From a bacterium (GTDB lineage Bacteria > Blakebacterota > Blakebacteria > Blakebacterales > Blakebacteraceae): DNA of 9,598 nucleotides. Made by a program: the position numbers and the translations under genes. Every line of letters starts with the position of its first letter. Position 1 is the stretch's first letter. Positions 558 to 9,169 of the stretch are shown here, one piece after another. The stretch lies in contig JALGVQ010000108.1 of the NCBI GenBank assembly GCA_025774615.1, positions 1-9,598 of the forward strand, in the 5' to 3' direction. Under the pieces are notes generated by a model. The model saw only the letters and a program-made list of their open reading frames with translations, was not told the origin of the DNA and did not search any database.

Positions 558-848
558 CTACGGTCTGATATGATCGATCTCGTCCGGATCCAGCCCCATT
601 TCACGGACCTTCCGAACTGCCTGCTCATAGTCGGCTTCATCAACTGCTGAATTGAGCAGGAATTCCGCTACTCTCTCCGAGGTATACGATTCCACGGGAA
701 CAACCGCAGCAGGCCGAAGGAGTATCCCGTCCTCAGTCGCCTCGGCGACCATCATGGAACCATCTTCGATGCCGTAGAGTTGCCTCAACCTGGCCGGAAT
801 AACCACTGTGCCCCTCTTACCGACGCGAGTTGTTTCCATTTTTGACAT
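558..848 (-). CDS. AbrB/MazE-type antitoxin (SpoVT/AbrB DNA-binding domain), toxin partner broken
   Basis: This 96-residue protein has an N-terminal swapped-hairpin AbrB domain (about residues 6-47) with the signature GKRGTVVIPARLRQLYGIEDG followed by ILLRPA. Its C-terminal tail ends GLDPDEIDHIRP, a style common in antitoxins paired with PIN toxins, where the tail binds and blocks the nuclease. Such proteins also bind their own promoter. ATG at 848 is chosen because AGGA lies 6 nt upstream; a second ATG three codons in is possible. The upstream region holds a near-consensus promoter and three tandem 8-bp repeats that could be its operator. Directly downstream in the same frame is a truncated PIN toxin, so the protein now seems to be an orphan antitoxin or free-standing regulator. 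Family assignment is secure; present function is inferred. Confidence 0.88.
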   Translation of the reverse strand: MSKMETTRVGKRGTVVIPARLRQLYGIEDGSMMVAEATEDGILLRPAAVVPVESYTSERVAEFLLNSAVDEADYEQAVRKVREMGLDPDEIDHIRP

Positions 849-937: not shown

Positions 938-1930
938 TCAATCCCTTTTCAGTACTCCATTTATTGCCCCCTCGATCAACCGGATGGCGGCCTGTCGGGA
1001 GAGATGATCGGGGTCCCTCGGCCCATAGGGGGTTGAGGCAATGCCGATCGCGGCCACGCTGGGCCAGGTGAATATCAGTTCGAGACAGGCTGCCAGCTCC
1101 CGGCTCGTCGGACCATCCGGAGCTGTCAAGTTGTGCCCCAGCACCTCCTCAGGCGCGAGAACATCCATATCGATGTGGATGTAGATCACATCGGTCAGCT
1201 CACTCAGGCGATCCATCTGTTCCCGGACATTGCTGGTGAGATCCCGGATGTCATCGGTGGAGATGATCTCGATCTCCAGCCGCTCGATGAGTTCCTGCTC
1301 CCTGGGGTCGGTATCGCGCACATCTCCCAGCACGATGTAACTGGGCGGCAGGGGCGGATCGAGGCTGGTGATCAGTCGATTGCTGTCATTATAGAGACCC
1401 GCCGCCAGGGCAACATCCATCCCGCCGTACATGCCGCTGAGGGTCGTTTCCGGAGTGTTGATGTCGGCATGGGCATCGAAATAGATCAGGCCGACCCGGT
1501 TCGGGATATTCGCCGCGAGGTGATAGACCTGTTCCTCACTGCCCGGCCCCATATGCTGGAGACCCGCCAGGATACCAGGCAGATCGGTGCAGCTGCCCAG
1601 CAGAGCGACAGTGAAGTACTCGTTCTTCCCATGGACTGAGATCAGATCGGCCAGGTGTCTGCTCACCAGAGCTGACCTCGCCCATCCCCCGAATGCATCT
1701 TCCTCCGGCGTGAGGGCGAAGGCCTCATTGAACGCGATCTCCGCGCCCAGCGCTGTGATCCGGTCGATGAGCCCCTCCTCAAGGATACTGTTAGAGGCGC
1801 CGAAGGGATTCCGGACGACCGAGACAGCCACCGATCCCTCCCCACGATATTCCTGCGCACCAATGACCTGCGGCAGAGTCACAAGCAGGCCGATAAGGAT
1901 CCCGGATGCAGTTCGCTTAAAACTGTTCAT
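938..1930 (-). CDS. Exported arginase-fold protein with altered active site (copy A)
   Basis: This 330-residue protein has a signal peptide at about 1-25 (hydrophobic core ILIGLLVTLP, likely cut after VIGA), so it acts outside the cytoplasm, unlike ordinary arginases. The ureohydrolase fold shows in D152-A-H154-A-D156-I-N-T-P and in H252-I-D254-M-D256, which supply five of the six usual Mn ligands. The sixth, the His of 'G-G-D-H', aligns by eye with Cys114 in LLGSCTDLPG. The substrate segment 'S-G-N-x-H-G' is SGMYGG, and the late 'E-V-N-P' glutamate is replaced (GIASTP). A metal may still bind, but classic arginine or agmatine hydrolysis looks unlikely. The start codon has GGGGAG 6 nt upstream and overlaps the previous gene by 14 bp, so the two are probably translationally coupled. 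It is paralogous to the upstream gene, sharing DPPL...VRDT-P and PDT/PETT blocks. Confidence 0.85.
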   Translation of the reverse strand: MNSFKRTASGILIGLLVTLPQVIGAQEYRGEGSVAVSVVRNPFGASNSILEEGLIDRITALGAEIAFNEAFALTPEEDAFGGWARSALVSRHLADLISVHGKNEYFTVALLGSCTDLPGILAGLQHMGPGSEEQVYHLAANIPNRVGLIYFDAHADINTPETTLSGMYGGMDVALAAGLYNDSNRLITSLDPPLPPSYIVLGDVRDTDPREQELIERLEIEIISTDDIRDLTSNVREQMDRLSELTDVIYIHIDMDVLAPEEVLGHNLTAPDGPTSRELAACLELIFTWPSVAAIGIASTPYGPRDPDHLSRQAAIRLIEGAINGVLKRD

Positions 1931-2972
1931 GGTCGACTCCCCTCATCCGTATTCCCTCCACTGCTGCCTCGATCAGTCGATAAGCCGTTGCCAGCGATGT
2001 CTCTCCGGCATCATCGGGAAGACCGGCGATCCCGATGGCGGCGGCTTTCCTCCAGGCGAATATCTCCTGCAGGCTGAGTGCCAGATCCCTGCTCGAGAGC
2101 CCATCCTTCGTCAGGGAAGCACCCGGCATCACGGCAGGATCGAGCACACTGAGATCCACATGCACATATATGACGTCGACAGTATTGCTCAGCCTTCGCA
2201 TCTGCCGGCCGATCGCTCCTGAGCGGGCCTGCATCTCATCGACCGAGATCCTCTCGATAAAGGAATTGTCGATATTCAGTTCTTCATAGGGATTCGTATC
2301 CCGCACGCCGGCCATCACGATATGCCTGGTGGAGAGCGGCGGATCGAGACCGGCCTGAAGGCGCAGGGTCGTGTTGCACAGCCCGGCGGCAACGGCCACG
2401 TTCATCCCGCCCATATCGCCTTCTATAGTCGTGTCGGGTGTATTGAAGGCGCCTTTCGAATCGATCCAGACCAGCCCCACTTTCAGCGGGCGGTTCTCAC
2501 CCTGTCGAGGCAGACCGATGATGTCCCGGCCCAGAGTGTCCTTGAGGGGTGCGCGATCGGGCCCCAGATGCTGGAGCCCGGCGAGCATCCCCACCACCGA
2601 TTTACTGCCTGAGAGCAGTCCGACGAAGAAGCACTCATCCAGGTTGTACTGATAGATCATACGACCCAGCGTCCGGTTGGTGAGCGAGGCCCGGTTCCAC
2701 TCCCCGTATTCCCGTTCCAGTTCAGCCGGCATCCGCACCATTGCGGAACTCAATACCTCACAGCCAAGTTCGACGAGCCGTTCCAGAAGACCTCCATTCA
2801 GGAGCATCTCGGGACCCCGCAACAGCTCGGGACCGGTCCGGGAATCAGACCAGGGATCGGCGAGAACGACAACCTGCATGGTTCCTGAGTCGTTTATATA
2901 TTGTTGGGCCACTGTCGATACCGGCTGAAGAATCAGCAGGCTGAAACATGCACAGCAGATCCGGATCGTCAC
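1917..2972 (-). CDS. Exported arginase-fold pseudoenzyme lacking metal ligands (copy B)
   Basis: This 351-residue protein starts at GTG 2972, preferred because GAGG lies about 7 nt upstream and the product then opens with a clean signal peptide (MTIRICCACFSLLILQPVSTVA). In-frame GTGs as far as 2999 would overlap the preceding gene. The ureohydrolase fold is recognisable from LVWID-SKGAFNTPDTT, MAGVRDTNP and VIYVHVDLSVLDP. The metal site is gone: the expected D-A-H-A-D is D171-S-K173-G-A175, the second Asp of D-x-D is Ser275, and the first His position is Ser123. The substrate His and Glu regions are also changed. The frame is nevertheless intact, with a good ribosome-binding site, which argues for a retained non-catalytic role such as ligand binding or partnership with copy A. 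It begins 4 bp after the NTF2-like gene stop. Confidence 0.85.
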   Translation of the reverse strand: MTIRICCACFSLLILQPVSTVAQQYINDSGTMQVVVLADPWSDSRTGPELLRGPEMLLNGGLLERLVELGCEVLSSAMVRMPAELEREYGEWNRASLTNRTLGRMIYQYNLDECFFVGLLSGSKSVVGMLAGLQHLGPDRAPLKDTLGRDIIGLPRQGENRPLKVGLVWIDSKGAFNTPDTTIEGDMGGMNVAVAAGLCNTTLRLQAGLDPPLSTRHIVMAGVRDTNPYEELNIDNSFIERISVDEMQARSGAIGRQMRRLSNTVDVIYVHVDLSVLDPAVMPGASLTKDGLSSRDLALSLQEIFAWRKAAAIGIAGLPDDAGETSLATAYRLIEAAVEGIRMRGVDHEQF

Positions 2973-2976
2973 GATT

Positions 2977-3564
2977 TTACCTCTTCCCACCACTACCACC
3001 TTTCAGGATGCTTTCCGGGATCTCCCGACCGGGCATCTCGACATCGGTCACTATCGATGAGATCCACCAGCGTCCCTCATGGAAAGCAAGTGAGATGCTG
3101 TCCACCCCGCGCTGAAGCGGGTTGGGGGCCTGGGGATCCATGCGGATCTCATAGACAGCGTAGGAGTGAGCGATCCGCCCGAAAGAGGTCATCTCATATC
3201 GGCCCAGGCGCTCATGGAAACCGGTCCGCTTCATGTCGAATTTCTCGATGTCTTCCTTGAAGAACTGGATGAAGCCCTCCAGATCGAAGGGACGGAATGC
3301 GGCCTCTCCCCTCCCCGGCGGCTGGAAGAAGACAGCCTCGGGATGGCAGAGCAGCCTCATGCGGTCCCAGTCGCACTCGTTCCCCGGGCTGAAGGAACAT
3401 GACCGGTAGAGATCGAGGAGTACATTCTCCACCTCTGTGTAATCGCCGGAGTACTGCCGCCACGGTTCCTGTTCCGCGGCCGATACGGTGAAGCCGCCGC
3501 CGATCATCACCGCGAGGACAACAACCGTTGTGATCCCTGATATGGTTCCTGAAATCCTCTTCAT
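2977..3564 (-). CDS. Exported NTF2/SnoaL-like protein
   Basis: This 195-residue protein has a signal peptide at about 1-29 (core TTVVVLAVMIGGG, likely cut near VSA-AEQ). The rest fits a cone-shaped NTF2-like domain: an N-terminal helix (YTEVENVLLDLYRSC), a DWDRMRLLCHPEAVFF segment typical of the 'W-x-x-L-x-x-x-F-x-x-D-A' region, and a closing strand pair around HEGRWWISSIVTDVE. Two cysteines (CSFSPGNEC) could form a disulfide outside the cytoplasm. NTF2-like domains bind small hydrophobic ligands, act as enzymes, or mediate protein contacts; nothing here decides which. ATG 3564 has AGGGGG 6 nt upstream. The gene lies 67 bp after the propeller gene and 4 bp before arginase-like copy B, so it is almost certainly co-transcribed with them. 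Confidence 0.75.
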   Translation of the reverse strand: MKRISGTISGITTVVVLAVMIGGGFTVSAAEQEPWRQYSGDYTEVENVLLDLYRSCSFSPGNECDWDRMRLLCHPEAVFFQPPGRGEAAFRPFDLEGFIQFFKEDIEKFDMKRTGFHERLGRYEMTSFGRIAHSYAVYEIRMDPQAPNPLQRGVDSISLAFHEGRWWISSIVTDVEMPGREIPESILKGGSGGKR

Positions 3565-3579
3565 GCGATACCCCCTGGA

Positions 3580-3607
3580 AGCCTGTCGGAGAAACCGACG
3601 ACAGGCT
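3580..3607 (-). promoter_or_regulatory. Intercistronic stem-loop before the NTF2-like gene
   Basis: Perfect 9-bp complementary arms AGCCTGTCG and CGACAGGCT flank a 10-nt loop, extendable outward by a G-T and a G-C pair. It lies in the 67-bp gap between the propeller and NTF2-like genes, a few bases before the latter's AGGGGG. No T-run follows, so it is not a standard intrinsic terminator. It may mark an RNA processing or stability boundary or lower expression of the downstream genes. Confidence 0.5.
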
Positions 3608-3631
3608 CCTGTGATATTCCATCCCGAGTGT

Positions 3632-6529
3632 CTACTTCCTGACGATGTACCCTGGATTGTCCTCCTCGATGACCAGGGTCGTTGTCATCTCCTCGCCACT
3701 GACGATCAGTGTCACCAGGTACGTGCCGGCTCCGGCCATTGCTCCTGAAAGCCGTCCCCGAGCGCGCCCGCCGAGGGTCTGAGCCTCAGCGGTGAACCGG
3801 AGCTGGAACGTCCGCAGCCTGCCCAGGTCGGCCCCGGCATCAGTGAGGGCTTCCTGCAGATCCTCTATCAGCCTCAGCTGCGCTCTGTCCGCGCGCTCAG
3901 CCAGACGATCGAGTTCCCTCCCGATCGCGGTGATGAAGAGCTCGATCTGCTGGGAATTCGGATCGGAACTCCGGTCCCACTGGAAGGTGTGGATACCGGA
4001 TCCACCCTTGATCTGAACGGTACGCACCAGTTCGCCGGTGATGTCACTGATCCTCAATTCGCCTGAGCCCGCTGCCTCACTCAAGGTGTACGAAATGAAC
4101 GGGCCATCGGGTGGATTCGGCCCCCTGAACTCCTTATCGGTCTGATAGGGATACTGGCCGCTCGGCCGGGCCCAGATCACCGAGGGTCTGACATCGAAGA
4201 GATGAGCGTCCTTCAGCCTGACAACCGGAGTGAATTGCTGCAGCGCGGTAATGTTGTCGGCGATCCAGGCACCCCTCCCGTGCGTGCCGGCGATAAGATC
4301 CCCGTCCCGTGGATGGATATACAGGTCATGCACCTCGACGGTGGGGAATCCGTTCATGAATCGAGTCCAGTTCCCGCCGCGATCGAGTGAGACGAAAACT
4401 GAAGAGGAAGTGCCGGCGAAGAGCAGATCAGGGTTGTGGTAATCCTCGCGGACCACGAATACGGCACCCTCAGGGAGATTGTTCGAGATCTTCTGCCAGC
4501 TCTCGCCGAAATCATCAGTGATAAAGATGTACGGAGCGATGTCATCGTTCCGGTGTCCGTCAAAGACCAGGTAAGCCCTTCCCTCGACATGGTTCGAGGC
4601 CTCGAGGCGCTTCACCCAGTACTCACTGGGGGCCCCCGGGATATTGTCGATCACGTTGGTCCAGTGCGAGCCACCATCCCGCGTGACCCAGACATTGCCA
4701 TCGTTCGAACCGACCCAGAGGATATCGGGATCCAGGGCTGATTCATCGATGGAGACGATTGCCCGTGCCTTCCCGTCATCCTTCGCGACGGCCAAGGTCA
4801 TGTCAGGACTGATGATCCGCCAGTGATCACCCCGATCCACCGACATGAAGAGATGGTTGCCGCCATAGTAGATCGTGGTCGGATTGTGCTGGGAGATCAT
4901 CAGTGGTGAGTTCCAGTCGAAACGGAACCGGACCCTGCTCGCTCCAGTCTGTCCTTCGGCAGCGGGATAGTATCTCTCCAGATTTGTGGTGTTGCTGGTG
5001 GAGGGTCTGATCCCCCGTCGCTGGCCGGTCCGCAGATCGGTGCGCCCGACGTTCCCGTTCTGGCTCTCGGTGTAGACGATGTTGAAATCAGTTGGCTCGA
5101 CCTGGGCGTAGAACCCGTCTCCCCAGCTGATCATGTACCAGTCCTCGTTCCGGATCCCGTATTGTGACCTGGTCCGGCTCGGCCCACCCCACGAACCGTT
5201 GTCCTGCAGACCGCCATAGACGTAGTACGGATTCCGCATGTCAGCGGTGATGGCGTAGAACTGCGCCATCGGCATCTGCATGCAGAGATCCCAGGTCTTG
5301 CCGTGGTCCCAGGTGATGTTGATCCCGCCGTCACTGCCGAAAACGACATGATCGGAGTCGTTCGGGTCTATCCAGGCGCAGTGGTAGTCGATGTGGGTCG
5401 GCCCGCTGACCCGGGCACCCGAGATAACCGTCACCCCGCCATCCTCGGTGTAACCCATCGCTGTGCCACCTATCCAGATGATGTCGTCGTTGTTCGGGTC
5501 GACCCGGATCTGACTGTAATAGAATGGACGACTGTTGTAGGTGCTCTGCTGGTGCCATGTCGCGCCGTAGTCAGTCGATTTGAAGATTCCGCCGCGGTCG
5601 ACCTGTGATGAGGTCGCTTCTTCCTGAACACCACCTCCCGGTCTTCCACCACCCTGCGACTCGGTCTGGATGATTGCGTACACATGACCCGGTCGACTGC
5701 GGGAGGCACTCAACCCGATCCGGCCCATGTCGACTCCGGGCAGTCCGGCGGTGATCTTTCGCCACGTGGCACCCGCATCGTCAGAGATGTAGATCCCCGA
5801 ACCGGGACCGGTCATCTTCTCCGGATTGCCTCCTGAGAAAGCATCCCGCTGACGCTCATACGCCGCTGCAACCAGTCTTCTACTGTCGGCCGGATCCATG
5901 ACCAGGTCGGTCACACCAGTCTCGTCATCGATGAAGAGCACCTTCACCCACGTCTCCCCGCCATCGGTCGACTTGAACACACCCCGGTCGGGATTGGTCG
6001 CCCAGAGGTGGCCGACCGCAGCTACATAGACGACGTCGGGATCAGCCGGGTCGATCAGTACCCGACCTATATGGTGGGTGTCTTCCAGTCCGACGAAACT
6101 CCACGATTCCCCAGCGTTGGTCGACTTGTAGACTCCCCTGCCCCACGGAGAACTGTTCCTGCCGTTGGCCTCCCCGGTACCGACATAGATGATATCGGGA
6201 TCGCTCTGTGAGACCGCCAGGTCACCGATCGAGGTGATCGGTTGATCGTCGAAGATCGGCTCCCAGGTGGTACCCGCATTGACCGTCTTCCAGATTCCAC
6301 TGGTGGCCGCACCCGCGTAGATGATCTTCGGGTTGCTCTCGACACCCTCGATATCGACCGTCCGGCCCCCCATGTTGGCCGGTCCGATATTCCGCCAGCT
6401 GAACGATTTCAGGATGTTGTCATCGATTGTCTGTGCTGTCACAGGAGTGGAAATCGTGGCTGTCAGCAGAAGCATGAACGGGATGACCAGAACGATGTGA
6501 AACGGATGTTCCCTGAGATTACGAGTCAT
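3632..6529 (-). CDS. Exported Asp-box (BNR, sortilin/VPS10-like) beta-propeller protein
   Basis: This 965-residue protein starts at ATG 6529, preceded by GGGGGA. A start at 6541, four codons earlier, has no comparable ribosome-binding site. A signal peptide (about 1-33, core IVLVIPFMLLLTATI, cut near VTA-QT) sends it out of the cytoplasm. Ten Asp-boxes of the form S/T-x-D/N-x-G-x-x-W occur at about residues 82, 136, 187, 249, 318, 406, 563, 616, 671 and 714, with a degenerate one at 361, indicating two stacked propellers or one large ten-bladed one as in sortilins. A Gly-rich loop lies at 293-300. Residues 811-852 resemble a FlgD-type beta domain (ELRISDITGELVRT...GIHTFQWD). A charged helical segment (about 860-905) and a final beta part (GTYLVTLIVSGEE) follow. 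Databases often call relatives 'glycosyl hydrolase', but no catalytic residues support this; peptide or protein binding is more plausible. Confidence 0.9.
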   Translation of the reverse strand: MTRNLREHPFHIVLVIPFMLLLTATISTPVTAQTIDDNILKSFSWRNIGPANMGGRTVDIEGVESNPKIIYAGAATSGIWKTVNAGTTWEPIFDDQPITSIGDLAVSQSDPDIIYVGTGEANGRNSSPWGRGVYKSTNAGESWSFVGLEDTHHIGRVLIDPADPDVVYVAAVGHLWATNPDRGVFKSTDGGETWVKVLFIDDETGVTDLVMDPADSRRLVAAAYERQRDAFSGGNPEKMTGPGSGIYISDDAGATWRKITAGLPGVDMGRIGLSASRSRPGHVYAIIQTESQGGGRPGGGVQEEATSSQVDRGGIFKSTDYGATWHQQSTYNSRPFYYSQIRVDPNNDDIIWIGGTAMGYTEDGGVTVISGARVSGPTHIDYHCAWIDPNDSDHVVFGSDGGINITWDHGKTWDLCMQMPMAQFYAITADMRNPYYVYGGLQDNGSWGGPSRTRSQYGIRNEDWYMISWGDGFYAQVEPTDFNIVYTESQNGNVGRTDLRTGQRRGIRPSTSNTTNLERYYPAAEGQTGASRVRFRFDWNSPLMISQHNPTTIYYGGNHLFMSVDRGDHWRIISPDMTLAVAKDDGKARAIVSIDESALDPDILWVGSNDGNVWVTRDGGSHWTNVIDNIPGAPSEYWVKRLEASNHVEGRAYLVFDGHRNDDIAPYIFITDDFGESWQKISNNLPEGAVFVVREDYHNPDLLFAGTSSSVFVSLDRGGNWTRFMNGFPTVEVHDLYIHPRDGDLIAGTHGRGAWIADNITALQQFTPVVRLKDAHLFDVRPSVIWARPSGQYPYQTDKEFRGPNPPDGPFISYTLSEAAGSGELRISDITGELVRTVQIKGGSGIHTFQWDRSSDPNSQQIELFITAIGRELDRLAERADRAQLRLIEDLQEALTDAGADLGRLRTFQLRFTAEAQTLGGRARGRLSGAMAGAGTYLVTLIVSGEEMTTTLVIEEDNPGYIVRK

Positions 6530-6568
6530 GTTTTCCCCCATTGAGACAGGTAGCGAGATGCGGGGGCG

Positions 6569-6577
6569 AGTATAGCA
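6569..6577 (-). promoter_or_regulatory. Candidate extended -10 promoter of the exported-protein cluster
   Basis: On the - strand TGC-TATACT (6577 to 6569) forms an extended -10 element, with TATACT matching five of six positions. No good -35 is seen at the usual distance, which extended -10 promoters tolerate. Transcription would begin near 6562, about 33 nt before the propeller start at 6529. Confidence 0.4.
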
Positions 6578-6671: not shown

Positions 6672-7739
6672 TCAGGCCTCTGCCAGCTCGCCCATCAGTT
6701 CGTCGATGAGTTCTTTCACCGTGAGAATTGTGTCAACCCTGAATACGTTGGAGCCGCAGAACATCAGACCGTCATCAACATCTCCGGCCCATGAATCTGT
6801 GAGTGCCTTCGCGATACAGTATCTGGCGGTAGCGATCTTGCAGGCAGTCAGGCACTGGTAGGGGCAATTGAGCTTGATTTTCACGCCTGCTTCAAGATCC
6901 TGCAGCAGTTTATTCCGGATGGCGCGCCCCGGCAGACCGACAGGACTCTTGATGATCACGATGTCCTCTTTGGTGGCATCCAGGAATCTCTGCTTGAACT
7001 CCTGAGAGACATCGCATTCTTCAGTGACAACGAACCGGGTGCCCATCTGCACACCGGAGGCTCCCATCTCCATCATGCGGGCTATGTCTCCCCCGGTATA
7101 GATCCCGCCGGCAACGATGATCGGGATACTGCGTCCATGCTTGTCCTCGAACGGTTTGACGGCCTCCAGCACCTGGGGCAGCAGGACTTCCAGTGAGAAA
7201 TCGTCGACATTATCGAGTTGTTCGAGTGTGAAACCGAGGTGCCCCCCTGCCAGGGGGCCTTCGAGAATGAACGCGTCAGGAATGCGGTCGAAGCGCCTGT
7301 CCCAGGTGCGTGAGATCAACTCGGCCACGCGCGCGGAGCTGATGATCGGTACCAGGTTCACCTCAGGATCGGGCGCCAGGGCTGGCAGTTTTGTGGGGAT
7401 CCCCGCCCCGAAGATGATGACCATGATCCCGGCCCGTATTGCGGCGGGGATGAGATCCTCTACGTTACTGAGAACCCCCATGAAGTTCACGGCCAGGATG
7501 CCGTCGGTCAACGCTCTGGCTTTACCGATCTCGTTTTCGAGAGCCTCCCGGGACACATTCTCGTAGTCGTTCTTGGCGTCTTCGAAATCCCCCAGACCTA
7601 TGCTGGAGATGGTTCCTATCGCCCCCTGGTTGGCAACCGCGGAGGCAAGACCAGCGATGGAGACCCGTACACCCATACCGCCCTGGATGATGGGAACATC
7701 CGCCGTTAAGCTACCTATCTGCAGTTTTGGTATTTCCAA
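6672..7739 (-). CDS. Nitronate monooxygenase / FabK-like FMN-dependent oxidoreductase with C-terminal Cys cluster
   Basis: This protein has 355 residues with a TTG start at 7739, chosen because GGCGGA lies 6 nt upstream and the protein then opens MEIPKLQIG, the usual start of this family; a GTG at 7757 adds six residues but has no good ribosome-binding site. It is a TIM-barrel flavoprotein: PIIQGGMG (about 16-23) near the FMN, GPLAGGHLG with the conserved His167, and an FMN-phosphate segment IVAGGIYTGGDIA...GVQMGTRF (208-236). KSPVGLPGRAI is typical of nitronate-monooxygenase-like proteins. Cys292, 296, 300 and 308 (C-x3-C-x3-C-x7-C), plus Cys328, lie in the C-terminal part and could hold an iron-sulfur cluster. 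Possible reactions are nitronate oxidation or FabK-type enoyl-ACP reduction; the divergent FabF gene makes an acyl substrate attractive. No signal peptide, so cytoplasmic. Confidence 0.87.
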   Translation of the reverse strand: MEIPKLQIGSLTADVPIIQGGMGVRVSIAGLASAVANQGAIGTISSIGLGDFEDAKNDYENVSREALENEIGKARALTDGILAVNFMGVLSNVEDLIPAAIRAGIMVIIFGAGIPTKLPALAPDPEVNLVPIISSARVAELISRTWDRRFDRIPDAFILEGPLAGGHLGFTLEQLDNVDDFSLEVLLPQVLEAVKPFEDKHGRSIPIIVAGGIYTGGDIARMMEMGASGVQMGTRFVVTEECDVSQEFKQRFLDATKEDIVIIKSPVGLPGRAIRNKLLQDLEAGVKIKLNCPYQCLTACKIATARYCIAKALTDSWAGDVDDGLMFCGSNVFRVDTILTVKELIDELMGELAEA

Positions 7740-7814
7740 CTGAGTTCCGCCAATCACAACAGCAAGACAGGCACCCCACCCGCCCCAGAGTCAGAGAATT
7801 GCTTTATGATACGA

Positions 7815-7843
7815 TTTATAATCTAATCTCATTGACACGTCAT
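7815..7843 (-). promoter_or_regulatory. Candidate promoter of the nitronate-monooxygenase-like gene
   Basis: On the - strand ATGACG (7838-7843, four of six) and TATAAA (7815-7820, five of six) are separated by 17 bp. Transcription would begin near 7808, about 70 nt before the TTG start at 7739. The -35 box lies inside the 15-bp inverted repeat at 7833-7847. Confidence 0.45.
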
Positions 7844-7862
7844 GTCATTTACCGGAAATACT
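7832..7862 (+). promoter_or_regulatory. Candidate fabF promoter with consensus -35
   Basis: TTGACA at 7832-7837 is a perfect -35 hexamer on the + strand. The -10 is uncertain: GGAAAT with a 16-bp spacer and AATACT with a 19-bp spacer (7857-7862) are both imperfect. Such a weak -10 would suit an activated or repressed promoter. The distance to the ATG at 7928 leaves a leader of roughly 60 nt. Confidence 0.35.
7833..7847. promoter_or_regulatory. 15-bp inverted repeat TGACA-N5-TGTCA, candidate shared operator
   Basis: The arms TGACA and TGTCA are perfect complements around CGTCA. The element overlaps the + strand TTGACA of the fabF side and the - strand ATGACG of the flavoprotein side, so a dimeric regulator bound here would cover both -35 regions. 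No regulator gene is recognisable nearby, and the site matches no operator I can name with confidence. Confidence 0.4.
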
Positions 7863-7927
7863 TTTATCGGAATTACTTTGCTCATGGATGCTGAATCGGC
7901 TGTGGATTCCTGAAGGTGCCCCGCGAA

Positions 7928-9169
7928 ATGCAGATACGACGAGTAGTGATCACAGGACTGGGTGTACTGACTTCGATCGGAACGGGTGTTGAGAAATTCT
8001 GGTCCGCTCTGAAAGCCGGCACCAATGGTATAGCCCGGGTGACCCATTTCGATGTTTCCGAATACCGATCGACACTCGCGGGTGAAGTAAAGGAGTTCGA
8101 TCCATTCGAATGGATCGAAAGGAAGACCGCGAAACGGATGGGTCGATTCGCGCAGTTCGGTCACGCCGCCGCAGGCATGGCACTCGAGGATGCCGGTCTC
8201 GATGCCCATCCATTCGACCCGACCAGGATCGGTGTCATCGTCGGCTCCGGGATCGGTGGGTGTGATTCCATCCAGGAACTGTATGACGACCTCTTCAATA
8301 AGGGCCCGCGGAATGTTAATCCCTTCTCGGTTTCCAAAATCGTGGTGAACATGGCAGCGTGCGGGATCTCCATCAGGTACGGCCTGAAGGGCCCCCTGTC
8401 TGCCCCGTCGGTGGCCTGTTCTACCGGTTCCAACGCCATCGGTGACGCCTTCCGCATCGTTCAGCGGGGAGAGGCGGATATCATGCTCGCGGGGAGCTCC
8501 GAAGCGTCTATAAGCCCGATGGCATACGGCGGTTTCTGTGGTTCCCGCTCGATGTCGACGAGTGATTCTCCAGAGACCGCAAGCCGCCCCTTCGACCTGA
8601 ACCGGGATGGTTTCATTATGGGTGAGGGAGCCGGGATCGTGGTCCTGGAGGACCGGGATCACGCTATTGAAAGAGGTGCCGGTATCTACGCCGAACTCAT
8701 CGGGTACGGCAACACTTCCGACGCTTACCATCTCACCGCTCCCGATCCCGAGGGGGATGGAATGGCACGGGTCATGGAAGCAGCTCTGCGCGATGCCGGG
8801 GTGGATCCGGCCGGGGTCGGATATATCAATGCCCACGGCACCTCCACACCACTGAACGACAGGTGCGAAAGCATGGCCATCTCGAGAGTCTTCGGCAGCC
8901 ACGCCGCGAACCTCAAGATCAGCTCTACCAAATCGATGATCGGACATCTCCTGGCCGCCGCGGGGTCAGTGGAATGCGTTGCGACCGTAATGAGCGTGTA
9001 CACGGGAGATATCCACCCTACTATCAACTATCGGGACAACGATCCGGACTGTCCCCACGACTATGTGATTGATGGCACCGAAAAGGCCGATCCCGAGATC
9101 GCCATCAGCAACTCATTCGGTTTTGGCGGCGGAAATGCCTGCCTTGCTATCAGAAAGCACCAGGAGTAA
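7928..9169 (+). CDS. fabF: Beta-ketoacyl-[acyl-carrier-protein] synthase II (KAS II)
   Basis: This 413-residue protein is the full length of FabF. It condenses malonyl-ACP with an acyl-ACP in fatty-acid chain elongation, or in a related pathway, in the cytoplasm. The thiolase-fold catalytic triad is complete: Cys164 in APSVACSTGSNAIG, His303 in NAHGTSTP and His340 in KSMIGHLLAAAG, with Lys335 also present. The C-terminal loop is NSFGFGGGNA (usually GFGGTNA). ATG 7928 is preferred over GTG 7916 because GAAGGT lies about 10 nt upstream and the protein then begins MQIRRVVITGLG as in relatives. It is followed 23 bp later by a FAD oxidoreductase gene. No acyl-carrier-protein gene is next to it, so a specialised lipid or polyketide-like role rather than the core pathway is possible. 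A 24-bp perfect palindrome lies within codons 57-64. Confidence 0.93.
   Translation: MQIRRVVITGLGVLTSIGTGVEKFWSALKAGTNGIARVTHFDVSEYRSTLAGEVKEFDPFEWIERKTAKRMGRFAQFGHAAAGMALEDAGLDAHPFDPTRIGVIVGSGIGGCDSIQELYDDLFNKGPRNVNPFSVSKIVVNMAACGISIRYGLKGPLSAPSVACSTGSNAIGDAFRIVQRGEADIMLAGSSEASISPMAYGGFCGSRSMSTSDSPETASRPFDLNRDGFIMGEGAGIVVLEDRDHAIERGAGIYAELIGYGNTSDAYHLTAPDPEGDGMARVMEAALRDAGVDPAGVGYINAHGTSTPLNDRCESMAISRVFGSHAANLKISSTKSMIGHLLAAAGSVECVATVMSVYTGDIHPTINYRDNDPDCPHDYVIDGTEKADPEIAISNSFGFGGGNACLAIRKHQE
8096..8119. repeat. Perfect 24-bp palindrome inside fabF
   Basis: The half-site TTCGATCCATTC is followed immediately by its exact reverse complement GAATGGATCGAA, with no spacer. It encodes FDPFEWIE (residues 57-64). 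Part of this peptide is conserved in FabF proteins, but the codon choices that complete the symmetry are not forced. Ten bases of the half-site (ATCCATTCGA) recur at 8208-8217. Confidence 0.85.

Follow-up and report, generated by a model that had tools for sequence, protein, structure and literature searches.

A putative exported enzyme–pseudoenzyme pair in an arginase-branch family with cysteine at a metal-ligand position

A described precedent for the use of an inactive ureohydrolase as a subunit is the metformin hydrolase MetCaCb, a heterohexamer in which a metal-free ureohydrolase paralog is needed by the active partner (PMC11271267; 8X3G). Each subunit is inactive on its own, and MetCb is devoid of five of the six metal ligands (PMC11271267). 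Departures from the usual arginase site are also on record, as the peptide arginase OspR carries Ile at the position of His141 but retains the full set of six ligands, with His at MnA (PMC10028609). In arginase, residues N130, T135, S137, D183 and E186 face the α-carboxylate or the α-amino end of arginine, and the loop A equivalents N130, T135 and S137 hold the α-carboxylate of the substrate (PMC9224512). In the open literature, we found neither periplasmic or secreted bacterial arginases of the kind analysed here, nor any description of an arginase-superfamily enzyme that combines a metal-site Cys, export and the loss of the guanidinium-binding residue.

The window analysed here is one whole contig of 9,598 bp (G000:C160) from a genome that is 82% complete. 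ORF reading of its minus strand reveals four consecutive genes, P4, P3, P2 and P1 in transcription order, separated by 67 bp (P4–P3) and 4 bp (P3–P2) and with a 14-bp overlap between P2 and P1, in full agreement with the preliminary description. P2 begins at a GTG (position 2972) behind the Shine–Dalgarno-like sequence GGGAAGAGG, whereas for P4 an ATG at 6529, preceded by GGGGGA, is a likelier start than 6541. P3 and P4 may be co-transcribed with P2–P1 in the window. The G+C-rich hairpin in the P4–P3 gap, which has no T-run and is not more stable than shuffled sequence, might conceivably act as an attenuator between these two genes. A hydrophobic, signal-like N-terminal segment is visible in each of the four products, strong by inspection and picked up by a crude score, as expected from the signal peptides reported earlier. 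The previous assignments of these proteins as arginase-fold, NTF2-like and sortilin/BNR propeller proteins have also been confirmed by Pfam and by the structural model of P3.

Two further regions flank this cluster. At 335–848, on the minus strand, the antitoxin gene is followed by a stretch that by eye resembles a PIN-type toxin reduced to its C-terminal end, likely a broken toxin–antitoxin pair. At 6672–9169, a nitronate monooxygenase/FabK-like gene (minus strand) and fabF (plus strand) are arranged divergently, while their counterparts in genome G002 (L054) are neighbours on the same strand. The possibility of a misbinned contig is disfavoured, since genomes of the same taxonomic family contain relatives of FabF (64–66%) and P3 (69%). 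The phylum of the window is small, and four of its genomes were searched.

Table 1. Positions of the genes, site residues and other features in the window.
Feature	Position	Strand	Evidence
Open reading frame, C-terminal part, histidine-phosphatase-type look, cut by the contig end	2-334	+	by eye
AbrB/MazE-like antitoxin gene	558-848	-	family match
P1, arginase-fold, 330 aa, putative active subunit	938-1930	-	Pfam, AF2, orthologs L009-L012
P1 DMD metal-ligand motif (D232/D234 equivalents), intact	1163-1171	-	
P1 loop A NTPETTLS (N130, T135, S137 equivalents)	1436-1459	-	
P1 DAHAD metal-ligand motif (D124/H126/D128 equivalents), intact	1463-1477	-	
P1 Cys114 codon, at arginase metal ligand His101; family motif [NST]C replaces GGDHS	1589-1591	-	profile alignment
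P2, arginase-fold pseudoenzyme (putative), 351 aa	1917-2972	-	Pfam Arginase, ligand substitutions, dN/dS
P2 DLS, replacing DxD: D234 to Ser	2148-2156	-	
P2 DSKGA, replacing DAHxD: H126 to Lys, D128 to Ala	2448-2462	-	
P2 Ser123, at the Cys/His101 position	2604-2606	-	
P3, NTF2-like, 195 aa, neighbour of the pair	2977-3564	-	AF2 and Foldseek, G002 ortholog
G+C-rich hairpin, 9-10 bp, in the 67-bp P4–P3 gap	3571-3604	-	z -0.8 vs shuffles
P4, Sortilin/VPS10-BNR propeller with FlgD-Ig-like C-terminal domain	3632-6541	-	Pfam

Both P1 (E=1.3e-18) and P2 (E=4e-12) match Pfam Arginase above the cutoff, and the AF2 model of P1 (pLDDT 88) reaches Z=34 to the arginase of B. caldovelox (2cev), placing the proteins in the arginase/ureohydrolase superfamily fold. 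Orthologs of P1 (68–76%) were found at L009–L012. By sequence, the P1 family belongs to the arginase branch and not to the agmatinase branch. However, the TIGR01229 arginase equivalog gives the pair 81 and 64 bits versus a cutoff of 228, and the residues expected of an arginase (EC 3.5.3.1) are incomplete. In a profile alignment with the arginases of B. subtilis and B. caldovelox, the Cys of P1 falls on ligand His101 without gaps. All 40 non-P2 sequences that extend over this position have the Cys, and they also retain the remaining five metal ligands wherever these are covered. At the guanidine end, the proton shuttle His141 is replaced by Gly in 41/41 family sequences and the guanidinium-binding Glu277 by Ser or Thr in 40/40. 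At the amino-acid end, N130, S137, D183 and E186 are conserved in all 41 members of the Cys family and T135 in 40 of 41; N139 is not kept. Since one ligand and the guanidine end have been rebuilt while the amino-acid end stays, this pattern does not correspond to decay.

A scan of named genomes detected close relatives of P1 in Gemmatimonadota, Acidobacteria, Aminicenantes, Saprospiraceae and Woeseiaceae, as well as in a deltaproteobacterial MAG and one archaeal MAG. The family is present in 14 of ~400 genomes of Gemmatimonadota (the phylum of L009) and, likewise, in 14 of ~400 genomes of Acidobacteriota (the phylum of L013). According to the crude score, signal-like N-termini occur in most members, being absent from L024, L090 and L106, and the L126 member has the look of a lipoprotein on inspection. 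Judged from its sequences, the P1 family thus appears to be an undescribed arginase-branch group whose members, spread over several bacterial phyla, are mostly exported. It is thinly spread over Acidobacteriota, Gemmatimonadota, Bacteroidota and others, where a plain 'arginase' annotation is probable and likely wrong. Most members do without a P2 partner, so that P2 is not a general requirement of the family, and no conserved neighbours of the single-copy members were found among the family loci.

Some individual loci deserve mention. A beta-lactamase-like serine hydrolase recurs near four single-copy loci. In a Saprospiraceae MAG (L018, 7429–7881), a small exported protein, NTF2- or lumazine-binding-like by eye and without a match to P3, is encoded divergently beside a single-copy Cys-family gene. 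The pair-bearing genome G062 also harbours a single-copy relative (L126, 1402–2424) with the lipobox-like N-terminus LTLSCSPEPEQ.

P2-type genes have a far narrower range, having been found only in the genome of the window and three genomes of one order (3/154); searches of this order from two centres returned the same three pair-bearing genomes among the 154. In the four P2-type sequences that the searched collections contain, the Cys is replaced by Ser, H126 by Arg or Lys, D234 by Asn or Ser, S137 by Glu or Gln and D183 by Asn (4/4 in each case), and D124 or D128 is lost as well. Nevertheless, dN/dS is low for P2 (0.09–0.23) and for P1 (0.07–0.11), values that are rough because synonymous sites approach saturation. 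P2 thus has the appearance of a pseudoenzyme maintained by selection, and a decaying pseudogene is ruled out by dN/dS and by the intact frames in four genomes. P2 lies directly upstream of P1 in all four P2-bearing genomes (window, L009, L010 and L011), with the P2 stop and the P1 start also overlapping in L009–L011. In a tree of 45 sequences, the P1-type and P2-type clades (100/100 each) are sisters (90/72) inside the Cys family, a grouping that has moderate support. Moreover, the two types share an inserted segment, placed after the Cys motif and ahead of DAHxD, that is absent from the single-copy members aligned. The sister clades and the common insertion make one duplication the simplest account. 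Three exported amidohydrolase-like genes follow P2–P1 at L009 (5978–10271) and at L010 (4708–8992), the latter with an inserted gene.

The claim that two non-canonical arginase relatives are kept together has been supported by the substituted sites and by the adjacency of the pair in every P2-bearing genome. Their description as 'two modified arginases' is correct in that both are altered, although it understates the difference between them: in P1, five of the six ligands remain and the sixth position holds a family-invariant Cys, whereas most of the ligands are gone from P2. On the basis of family membership, ligand pattern, duplication, selection and adjacency, all read from the sequences, we consider it probable (roughly 0.6) that P2–P1 is an exported enzyme–pseudoenzyme pair generated by a duplication within an arginase-branch family with Cys at the His101 position. 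Metal binding, catalysis, substrate, heteromer formation and export are inferences drawn from these data. Both proteins are predicted to reach the periplasm or cell envelope, where P1 would be the active metallo-subunit, using the five canonical ligands and the Cys. As P1 is devoid of Glu277 and His141 and mostly keeps the residues of the amino-acid end, its substrate or ligand, whether hydrolysed or simply bound, would probably be an amino-acid-like compound whose head group is not a free guanidinium. P2 would be unable to bind the metal pair or the substrate in the normal way. Its retention would instead reflect a structural or regulatory role, most likely within a mixed trimer or hexamer shared with P1, on the pattern of MetCb and MetCa. 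A tentative extension, to which we grant somewhat less than even odds, is that the family comprises widespread exported arginase-fold metalloenzymes with a Cys ligand and a rebuilt catalytic site, which act outside the cytoplasm on amino-acid-like compounds by a reaction other than guanidine hydrolysis, with one branch having gained an inactive partner independently of MetCaCb.

Other roles for the pair have to be weighed against this one. P1 could be a genuine amidinohydrolase that is exported and has a guanidino amino acid as its substrate, the Cys merely replacing a His ligand; the arginase-branch profile (E=2e-64) and the retention of N130, T135, S137 and D183 are in line with this idea. 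However, Glu277 and His141 are substituted in all members with coverage of the site, which makes it quite improbable. Classical guanidine hydrolysis by P1 is unlikely, and the guanidino-compound substrate suggested in the preliminary description is disfavoured by the absence of these two residues throughout the family. Alternatively, P1 and P2 could be non-catalytic exported binders of an amino-acid-like ligand, with the metal site of P1 serving for binding and P2 as a diverged second binder. The whole family has lost the proton shuttle and the guanidinium Glu and has kept most amino-acid-end contacts, as such binders might, but five ligands plus an invariant Cys in 40/40 sequences from several phyla go beyond the needs of binding. 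Furthermore, OspR functions with Ile in place of the shuttle, so that the absence of His141 does not preclude catalysis in the P1 family, and in P2 the amino-acid-end contacts S137 and D183 are missing too. A purely binding role for both proteins is thus rather unlikely.

A larger unit, in which P4, P3, P2 and P1 form one secreted assembly, had been proposed in the preliminary description, with conserved adjacency in related genomes as its test. The shared strand, the close spacing and the four signal-like N-termini favour it, as does an acidobacterial single-copy relative (L113) that is followed at a distance of 249 bp by a propeller gene in the same orientation. Nonetheless, the propeller and NTF2-like genes scatter in related genomes, and the proposal is not supported. 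A propeller is a direct neighbour in only that one of about 33 family loci, and a P3 relative adjoins a family gene in none of them. No relatives of P3 or P4 were found in the flanks read at L009 (3.8+7.5 kb) and L011 (5.0+1.7 kb), and no conserved linkage to the pair was detected for P3 and P4 in the four genomes of the phylum or for P3 in 15 family-bearing genomes. P4 belongs to the Sortilin-Vps10 family (PF15902, E=8e-28, 98 bits versus a cutoff of 33) and is an ordinary member of the Sortilin/VPS10-BNR propeller proteins, a multi-copy family without a specific tie to the arginase pair: its own genome yields 21 matches and that of a congener 23, some being fragments of one gene, or roughly 20 matches per larger genome, in unrelated contexts. 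P3 only has sub-threshold SnoaL matches in Pfam, but its AF2 model (pLDDT 83) resembles NTF2-like folds in Foldseek (E about 1e-5), consistent with the NTF2-like superfamily. Its 69% ortholog in G002 (C155) sits apart, beside a sulfatase-like gene and an MFS-like transporter (named by eye). One secreted assembly is therefore very improbable, and P3 and P4 look like incidental neighbours rather than parts of the P2–P1 machine.

The enzyme–pseudoenzyme pair favoured here can finally be compared with the systems described so far. The bacterial arginases of the RocF branch (B. subtilis and B. caldovelox) share with P1 the fold (Z 34), the DAHxD and DxD motifs and most amino-acid-end residues, but differ from the P1 family in the H101C, H141G and E277S/T substitutions and in the predicted signal peptide of the latter. 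OspR is likewise an atypical arginase with the proton-shuttle His replaced, although it has His where P1 has Cys at MnA. With MetCaCb, the pair shares adjacent genes for an active and a pseudo ureohydrolase, found in 4/4 P2-bearing genomes, and a pseudo copy conserved despite the loss of most metal ligands. In contrast, MetCa has all six canonical ligands while P1 carries Cys at H101, the window family lies nearer, by profile match, to arginases (E about 1e-64) than to metformin hydrolase subunit B (1e-6), and the window pair has signal-like N-termini. In addition, no nickel chaperone genes were noticed by eye near L009–L011. Given this arginase kinship, the predicted export and the Cys site, P2–P1 appears to follow the same logic as MetCaCb from a separate origin. 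If so, it would represent a second independent active/inactive ureohydrolase pair, implying that inactive paralogs are taken on as subunits time and again in this fold.
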